Below are positions 28,901-31,900 of a stretch of DNA of 64,000 nucleotides, piece by piece. Numbering within the stretch: position 1 is the stretch's first letter; every line of letters starts with the position of its first letter. The stretch spans positions 65,279,485 through 65,343,484 of the forward strand of contig NC_054701.1 in the NCBI RefSeq assembly GCF_016097555.1, given 5' to 3'. The notes below the pieces were generated by a model. The model made no database searches. It was not told the origin of the DNA and saw only the letters and a program-made list of their open reading frames with translations. The stretch comes from Gigantopelta aegis. Lineage: Eukaryota; Mollusca; Gastropoda; Neomphalida; Peltospiridae. Both the position numbers and the translations under genes were made by a program.

Positions 28901-31900
28901 CAGTAACTGTTTGTTTTGCTGAAATAAAAAAATCACACACACAAAGATACAATCATGTCTATAATGTTATACACTAAAACAAAAGACAAACAAAAACATT
29001 ATTACTAATCTTATGTATGTTCACCATCAGCAGATACTGTCAACTGACTAGATATAACATACACTTCTCAACCATTTTAAAATACACTGGGCCAAATTTA
29101 CGAAGCAGGTGTTTCAACATTGTGAATGTATGTAGTTACATGCGTGTAAGACATAATCAGGCTTTGTAAATTCAGCTCATTAACTTTAGAAATAGTTTGG
29201 AGAGAATGACATACATTGTACAGTGTTCTGTGTTGTCTCTGTCAGTGATAGAGTATTTTAATCTTCCCTTAATTTGAGATTTAAAAACATACTGTGTTGT
29301 CTCTGTCAGTAATAAAAGTATTTCACACACTTGATTTGAGATTTAAAAACATAATCTGTTGTATTTGTCAGTGATTGATTTAAAAACGTACTGTGTTGTC
29401 TCTGTCCATGATTGATTTAAAAACGTACTGTGTTGTCTCTGTCAGTGATTGATTTAAAAACGTACTGTGTTGTCTCTGTCAGTGATTGATTTAAAAAACG
29501 TACTGTGTTGTCTCTGTCAGTGATTGATTTAAAAACGTACTGTGTTGTCTCTGTCAGTGATTGATTTAAAAACGTACTGTGTTGTCTCTGTCAGTGACAG
29601 AGTATTTCAGCCTGGTCTCCAAGCCCTTGATTTGAGATTTGATCGTGTTTAGCTCAGATTCCTTCCTCTTCTTCTTCATGTGTTCCTTGTACTCCTCCTG
29701 GAGTCGTTCCTTCCTTGACTTCAACTGATTCAACATTTTCTCATCCCATCGTCTGGCTTTTGCTCGCAAATCACTGTCAACAGAAAAACAATTTTATATT
29801 TATCAAAATCTGTTGCTATTTTTAAGCAATGCTGAAATTTGACACCCATTTAAAACTAAAAGCTAAAACCTCTATATTATTCCTCAATAAATGTGGGGGT
29901 TTTATAGGATTTTAGATCAAAATCCATAAACTTTTGAGAACTTTTTCTATACAAAAAAGAAAATTGAAATCGGATAAAAAGCAGAAAAATTACACCCTGA
30001 AATGCCAAATAATATCACTTTATTTAGTAAGTGGGTAAATAAAGCTATTTTGATTAACTGCTAAGTCAGGAACAAATTACAACTTTGTACATTGTCTTGC
30101 TTCATACTAAAACCTACATTTTTAACTATATTGTATAAACCAGCGATGGTCTGCGAATGGTTGTTAAACTATTAAGATATATTTCTTAACTAGACAGGCA
30201 TACCTTGCACCTCCAGATATGATACCAGACTTCTGGAAAAGTGTACCATCCAATGCCACAGACTGAAAAGAGATGGAGTGATACACATTTTAATACAAAA
30301 TCATTAAAACTTCGGAAGAAAAAGCAAACTTCATCAGCATTGGGATGCACATATTCATTTCTAGCAATTGGGGAAGAATTAAAATAAGTTATATTTTTAG
30401 ATGCTAAATCATCGTTCAACGTTGCGCATGGGTGTACAGCAGAATATTACAGTAGAAAAATTATCTTGTTCTTGTTTTATTAGAATTTTAAAAACAAAAT
30501 CAATTATTTTTTAATAATTTAAAATAATTAAATATCATATGGATTACCTTGTGTCTTTCTGTGCTGCCGAACGCAACTCTGCGAGCATCTTCGACAGTCT
30601 CTGCAACGAGAGCATTGCCGCAGGCGAACAAGAGAGCCTTTTTGATGACTGGGGGATCATATCGGATCACATCTATCACCAACTTCACATTCTTTGGCTC
30701 TCGAATATCTCTGTTTGGAAGAAAGTCAAACCACTATTAATTATGGAGAAAGAAAGAAGTGTTTTATTTAACGACACACTCAACACATTTTATTTACGGT
30801 TATATGGCGTCAGACATATGGTTACGGATCACACAGATTTTGAGAGGAAACCTGCTGTCGCCACTACATGGGCTACTCTTCCGATTGACAGCAAGGGATC
30901 TTTTATTTGTGCTTCCCACAGGCAGGATAGCACAAACCATGGCCTTTCTTGAACCAGTTATGGATCACTGGTCGGTGCAAGTGGTTTACACCTACCCATT
31001 GAGCCTTGCGGAGCACTCACTCAGGGTTTGGAGTCGGTATCTGGATTAAAAATCCCATGCCTCGACTGGGATCCGAACCCAGTACCTACCAGCCTGTAGA
31101 CCGATGGACTGCCACGACGCCACCGAGGCCGGTAATTAATTATGGAGAAAAAACACTTTGCACACAGGTTGGATACCAGGCTCCATATTCATAAACGTAT
31201 ATAAAGATAAAGTAAGATACTTATTTCTATACTTAAGTAGGTAGGTAAGTAGCATTAGTTGACTAGTCTATTTTTGAATACGCAACCAGTTTTGTAGAAT
31301 ACCACAGAAAACAAAACCTATTAACAAGGACAACTAAACCAAAGTATTACATAATAAAAAATTGTTTTTTTTAAATTTCTACGTGATTCTGACGTTTTGT
31401 ACTGGGATGATGTTAGGCATAGAGAGAAGTAACCGTAAGTTGTCATCCAAGTGAATGTTGGGCTATTAATTTTGTTTTAATTAAATAAATCTTAATTGTC
31501 CCAAAAGAAAAATATGTAGTGTTAGATGACTACTGTACAAAGTACATACAGTAGGAGCAATGGAAGGAAGGAAGGAAATGTTTTATTTAAAAATGCACTC
31601 AACACATTGTATTTACGGTTATATGGCATCAGACATATGGTTAAGGACCACACAGATATTGAGAGAGGAAACCCGCTGTCGCCACTTCATAGGCTACTCT
31701 TTTCGATTAGCAGCAAGGGATGTTTTATATACACCATCCCACAGATAGGATAGCACATACCACAGCCTTTAATGTACCAGTCGTGATGCACTGGCTGAAG
31801 CGAGAAATAGCTCAATGGGCTACCGACGAGGATCGATCCCAGACCGACCGCACATCGAGCGAGCGCTGTAACATTGGGCTACATCCCATCCCTTAGGAGC

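Follow-up and report, generated by a model that had tools for sequence, protein, structure and literature searches.

In a paper that appeared in PNAS in 2007, Zhuo et al. reportedly described human introns derived from tandem arrays, and the combination of tandem arrays with splice sites resembles what is found in the gene considered here, SMC1 of the gastropod Gigantopelta aegis. The wider idea that tandem genomic duplication can act as a source of introns is well represented in the literature (PMC4974935, PMC3443670, PMC2891723), and in the potato RdRp example described the duplication crosses an intron-exon boundary (PMC4974935). Intron gain of this kind, in the examples presented, shares with the SMC1 array a boundary-spanning duplication and the copying of splice signals, whereas in SMC1 no new intron is apparent: the intron is longer, and donors, not acceptors, have been multiplied (PMC4974935, PMC3443670). 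Among human segmental-duplication genes, internal tandem repeats at exon-intron boundaries have likewise been described (PMC2812944). Like the SMC1 array these lie across the boundary and, in the cases reported there, splicing patterns change, recent human paralogues differ in their repeats and novel introns can form; SMC1, in contrast, is a conserved gene in which one exon end has been kept and intact decoy donors stand behind it.

A related human mutation is ATP11A c.3322_3327+2dupGTCCAGGT, an 8-bp duplication at the end of an exon that takes in only two bases of the intron; the exon becomes 8 bp longer, with a frameshift, and the mutation goes with hearing loss (PMC9035003). Both it and the SMC1 array are tandem duplications of an exon end plus the start of its donor, but in SMC1 the duplication includes ten bases of the intron and leaves the upstream donor whole. 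Competition between identical donors at an exon flanked by long introns, a situation shared with SMC1, has been examined in human minigenes: where two identical 5' sites competed in constructs with flanking introns of 365 nt, splicing went exclusively to the upstream one (PMC9225289); those constructs are engineered and carry two sites, whereas the SMC1 junction is natural and carries six. From these known cases the SMC1 array differs in that enough intron is copied for the upstream donor to be kept whole, that donors only are multiplied, and that such duplications seem to recur at the homologous junction. No title describing this junction was found among those listed by a literature search whose coverage lay largely outside subscription journals.

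The window, that is, the whole 64,000-nt stretch of DNA analysed, carries SMC1 on its minus strand. A tblastn search with human SMC1A as query gave matches in order over residues 2-1233 from ~49.2 to 10.1 kb, missing residues ~317-332 and ~723-743 and adding one weak out-of-order match (E=0.005). The first gap corresponds to a microexon (Table 1) and the second to exon 17, read from the sequence; with these two short gaps filled by hand, the ordered homology extends to a full protein, modelled with 28 coding exons whose GT-AG junctions were chosen to keep the frame. The join between exons 16 and 17, ACA/CAA (the slash marks the exon boundary here and below), reads DRDNT-QNKQLL and agrees with two near-identical database open reading frames (ORFs) lacking this intron, P0001 and P0043, that read DRDNTQNKHLT. 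The SMC1 frames of these two entries cross the junction without a break, and it seems that either the intron was precisely lost in one lineage or the contig is RNA-derived. Longer repeats occur elsewhere in the gene: a 178-bp unit is present three times at 35437-35976 within intron 9, and a 176-bp unit, which we take to resemble a repeat known from molluscs, forms 22 copies at 17538-21401. Because no more than 20 nt separate the end of the latter array from the exon 25 acceptor (17518) downstream of it, the branch point of the preceding intron probably lies in or at the edge of satellite DNA.

Behind the donor of exon 16, intron 16 contains a short head-to-tail array in which the end of the exon is repeated together with the donor itself (Table 1). 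The nonamer ACA/GTACGT occurs six times in identical form on the minus strand, once as the true donor and five times as a decoy, and no further example exists in the window on either strand; the positions that the initial annotation had assigned to these six sites are all exact. In four decoys, identity with the true site extends from the cut over 20 nt upstream and 10 to 57 nt downstream; in the fifth (29391) it covers 15 nt upstream and 26 nt downstream. Eight copies in total follow the true donor, of which five are perfect 37/38-nt units, one is a decayed 37-nt unit, one measures 62 nt and one is truncated. The last two are the older, longer copies of exon 16 that had been described before, and the decayed unit with a broken donor (copy 6) is an addition to that description.

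Table 1. Features of SMC1 and its donor repeats, in window coordinates; a slash marks the exon-intron cut
Feature	Position	Strand	Description	Basis
Microexon	37271-37223	minus	49 nt; fills first tblastn gap
Exon 16	29578..29773	minus	196 nt; ends ...SVTDRDNT; phase 0	tblastn and gene model
Intron 16	28919..29577	minus	659 nt; contains the array	gene model
Exon 17	28850..28918	minus	69 nt; acceptor TTTATTTCAG	gene model
True donor	29572..29580	minus	ACA/GTACGT; donor G 29577	
Copy 1	29531..29567	minus	37 nt; perfect decoy, donor G 29540	unit alignment
Copy 2	29493..29530	minus	38 nt; perfect decoy, donor G 29503; carries an extra T	unit alignment
Copy 3	29456..29492	minus	37 nt; perfect decoy, donor G 29465	unit alignment
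Copy 4	29419..29455	minus	37 nt; perfect decoy, donor G 29428	unit alignment
Copy 5	29382..29418	minus	37 nt; perfect decoy, donor G 29391; upstream variant CATGGAC	unit alignment
Copy 6	29345..29381	minus	37 nt; degenerate, donor lost (CAGATTATG)	unit alignment
Copy 7	29283..29344	minus	62 nt; older long copy, donor ACA/GTATGT at 29292	unit alignment
Copy 8	29228..29282	minus	older long copy of exon tail, truncated, donor lost (ACACAGAACACTG)	unit alignment
Exon 18 donor array	28115..28278	minus	CAG/GTATTTTGTA at 28278, 28230, 28172; 58-bp unit	
Exon 24 donor echo	22098..22127	minus	ACATTTATAAA/GTATGC vs ACATTTATAAG/GTAAGC; 23/30 nt	

The array has the structure of a minisatellite, with head-to-tail units of high identity (TRF period 37, 6.9 copies, 95% matches, score 458). 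Dinucleotide runs aside, it is the only site of the window where a 30-mer recurs at least four times within 250 nt, and when one of its 74-mers was searched against the 1.149-Gb assembly, all four matches fell within the array. A chance origin of the array is excluded. At thresholds up to E=1, neither strand of 28800-29900 matches any Rfam family. A coding role for the repeats was considered and rejected as improbable, a stop being present already in the first unit; three ORFs of at least 40 aa overlap 29100-29800, one of them being exon 16 itself.

The unit alignment supports the history that the initial annotation had proposed, namely duplication of the exon end, internal deletion and amplification of a 37-bp unit. 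The founding unit of 73 nt comprises 63 exonic nt (AAATCTCAAATC...GACAACACA, from exon 16) and 10 intronic nt (GTACGTTTTT), the 37-nt unit equals this founding unit with its middle removed, and exon tail and donor follow each other in the original order in the five perfect copies as well as in the 62-nt copy. As the anatomy of the units shows, the array started as a tandem duplication across the boundary of exon 16 and intron 16. One copy then lost its middle and was reduced to the donor, ~20 nt of exon tail before it and the first 10 intronic nt; this shorter unit was amplified into a small minisatellite. Since every unit holds both exon tail and donor, gain or loss of units should keep the first junction intact and leave the array free to vary in length. 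An intron gain is not what the gene model depicts: it contains no extra exon, exons 16 and 17 are separated by intron 16, and a break into intron at the end of exon 16 is also seen in most of the other SMC1 ORFs fetched (recognised in 107 of 124). In the two older long copies a 19-nt core is unchanged relative to the exon at 38/38 sites and the flanks differ at 9/69 aligned sites (Fisher p=0.025). As a sign of conversion or constraint this contrast is marginal; purely neutral decay does not predict such sparing of the core, and short gene conversion would.

How the splicing machinery might choose among these sites is constrained by the protein. All six downstream donors tested give T-V-R-F-stop, so that the immediate stop announced by the initial annotation is borne out; its further statement, that of the six identical sites the first has to be chosen, is something that we infer from the coding requirement. 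The sequence near the cut cannot separate the sites, because the decoys are exact to 15 nt or more on the upstream side and 10 nt or more on the downstream side. The idea that RNA structure conceals the decoys was rejected as a discriminator, as predicted folding gives the true site no advantage (mean unpaired probability over 8/9 donor nt of 0.39-0.43 for the true donor versus 0.43-0.56 for the five decoys). The distinguishing feature of the true site is its position, nearest to exon 16's own acceptor.

In human cells, according to the minigene study, exons flanked by introns longer than ~250 nt follow a cross-exon proximity rule (PMC9225289). Intron 15, the upstream neighbour of exon 16, measures 430 nt and intron 16 measures 659 nt, and since both are long, use of the first donor with silent decoys would be the expected outcome under this rule as described there (PMC9225289), which is drawn from human cells and applied here by analogy. 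Exon 16 would be recognised as an exon and, of the identical donors, the one nearest to its own acceptor would be used; the decoys would remain latent, and any leak would meet a stop within four codons and yield a substrate for decay. The exon 16 donor forms the weakest U1 duplex among the 27 donors of the gene (-1.7 kcal/mol, the next being -3.8), and by a rough consensus score it is the fourth weakest. When both minigene sites were weakened, the upstream preference was kept in the two smaller exon sizes and skipping occurred in the two larger ones (PMC9225289). The weakness of the U1 site and the skipping seen with weakened donors in the larger exons of that study count against this account (PMC9225289). 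A retrocopy of the spliced message was sought in the assembly and not found, the three matches all being exons of the SMC1 locus itself.

Among the 27 donors of SMC1, a perfect 30/30 junction echo is found at exon 16 alone. Weaker echoes exceed the control maximum of 18 at exon 24 (23/30) and exon 18 (21/30 at 28059, donor broken), giving 3/27 donors above the control, compared with 0/27 acceptors. Both of these look like decayed boundary copies, and the exon 24 echo, ~147 nt into intron 24, has kept its GT. Exon 18, 1.3 kb downstream in the same gene, additionally has a donor array of its own; four exonic nt are copied exactly in its unit, and the decoy at 28230, if used, would add 16 residues in frame. 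The donor echoes at exons 18 and 24, as well as the exon 16 echoes in other animals described below, extend what the initial annotation had recorded. At the level of the assembly, CAGGTAAGT occurs three times in tandem in 280+153 instances versus 181+53 for the reversed pattern, and a genome-wide excess of donor-consensus arrays is not claimed, because a few long arrays dominate the counts among the matches listed. Eight such arrays were read, of which one (L022) apparently begins at a real exon and another (L018) is equivocal. In the former, at L022:1984-2801 (array starting at 15861758 of assembly C2), what is probably an exon (FTQDSYQKDLEQALLQSKQDFEKQVQ) ends near C2:15861760, and its donor CAG/GTAAGT is followed by 15 more perfect copies in the 740 nt fetched, spaced mostly by 35 and 54 nt.

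Read-through ORFs of other animals were collected by two protein searches, the second restricted to the matches listed (120 of 410, E<=1e-8), which together yielded 124 proteins. A recognisable junction was present in 107 of these (17 dropped), and a tail of at least 8 residues in 83 (24 of the 107 dropped); each tail was then compared, in any reading frame, with the end of the exon as a possible copy, using a cut-off score of >15. Six of the 83 echo the end of exon 16, forming three clear clusters and one weak one, and 0/300 tail shuffles reach these scores. P0046/P0051 have a period of 53 with 42/42 nt codon-compatible, P0037 has periods of 65 and 130 (40/42 and 41/42 nt), P0068/P0069 a period of 28 (24/24 nt), and the weak P0081, which passes the score cut, a period of 93 (12/12 nt). 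According to our own codon reading, the decoy GT is forced in one P0037 copy (TGG-TAY) and also, provided that a stop closes the frame, in P0046/P0051 (TGG-stop); the P0068/P0069 copies and the last copy of P0037 allow an intact donor without requiring it. P0066, in which NTVG is repeated, was spotted by eye and lies outside the best 25 scores listed. The exon 16 alignment, scanned once against genome contigs and once against viral contigs, found no relative, so the cross-species echoes are read from peptides, not from DNA.

At the level of read-through peptides, boundary-spanning duplications appear to recur at the same SMC1 junction in other animals and with other unit lengths. The three clear clusters all stand beside rows with nearly the same exon and no visible echo (P0023, P0024 and P0028 for P0037; P0047 and P0089 for P0046/P0051; P0008, P0010 and P0070 for P0068/P0069), and for P0081 none of the close rows is informative in its tail. 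Absence of an echo in these relatives is provisional, because an early stop in the tail conceals any array behind it, as happens in the window. The closest relative of the window's gene, P0002, reads VRFCF and then ends, and thus has no copy where the first copy of the window starts, which excludes that position alone. A tree of the 85 rows, built on 66 columns, needs five changes, and its well-supported branches alone would allow one origin; separate, recent events are better argued by the differing periods and the echo-less sisters than by the tree.

As a control, a third search covered the phase-0 junctions of exons 14 and 24 and listed 93 proteins; after leaving out P0082 and P0086, which had already been seen, as well as 7/91 unsplit entries and 12/84 with short tails, 72 remained. 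Two of these 72 tails pass, one of them clearly: in P0192 the end of exon 14 and its donor are copied (43/44 nt) 111 nt further on, and in P0142 a doubtful match of 11 compatible nt passes the score cut. The P0192 tail is rich in CV/LC repeats. The proportions at exon 16 and at the control junctions (6/83 vs 2/72) do not differ significantly (Fisher p=0.29), and neither do the numbers of clear clusters (3 vs 1, p=0.62), so that a role of exon 16 as a special hot spot is not established. To judge from these peptides, duplications across exon-intron boundaries appear to have arisen repeatedly in SMC1 genes. The more ambitious proposal, in which the end of exon 16 would be a recurrent birthplace of donor-spanning minisatellites across animals, with the extra donors tolerated or even helpful as exon definition reads the first, and with a natural series of 2 to 6 identical donors, is tentative and in our judgement more doubtful than credible.

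Other explanations of the array have to be weighed against this account. Short, near-identical tandem units are error-prone, and copies could have been collapsed or inflated during assembly; however, the units carry private differences (the extra T of copy 2, the CATGG of copy 5 and the decayed copies 6-8) and the array takes up a few hundred bases within a 96.8-Mb contig, which makes an artefact very unlikely, although the exact copy number could still be off. The low rank of the exon 16 donor, last of 27 in U1 duplex energy, and the survival of the core ACTGACAGAGACAACACAG in both old long copies amid changed flanks would fit a role of the array as a helper, in which additional identical sites raise local U1 occupancy so that exon 16 is defined and the first site is cut. 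Such a function is so far only putative, and several observations weaken it: the donor of P0068/P0069, provided that the echo there is a genuine copy, reads GTGAGT, which is not weak; in the close relative P0002 the same VRF start has no copy directly behind it; and the conservation of the core is marginal (p=0.025), one 37-nt copy having decayed within it. A helper function is accordingly regarded as unlikely.

The identical early stop reached from every downstream donor tested could also be put to use, if some cells chose a decoy, added VRF-stop and lowered SMC1 levels by regulated unproductive splicing. P0002, again, has no copy directly behind its donor, and exon definition, in the form set out in the minigene study, disfavours downstream identical donors (PMC9225289); regulation of this type seems quite improbable. 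The account favoured here, consisting of a boundary duplication, amplification of a 37-nt unit, an array silent in splicing and recurrence of such duplications, is on the whole considered probable.

Designed minigenes have served to test how a cell chooses among identical donors, and here evolution offers an intact six-donor junction in a conserved gene, while other lineages apparently supply junctions whose units measure 28, 53 and 65 nt. In the window's SMC1, any site but the first, if used, would break the protein. This suggests a possible route by which the end of a coding exon may seed a minisatellite harmlessly and the length of an intron may vary beside an essential splice site. If the recurrence is true, these junctions could serve as natural experiments on the selection of one splice site from several identical ones.
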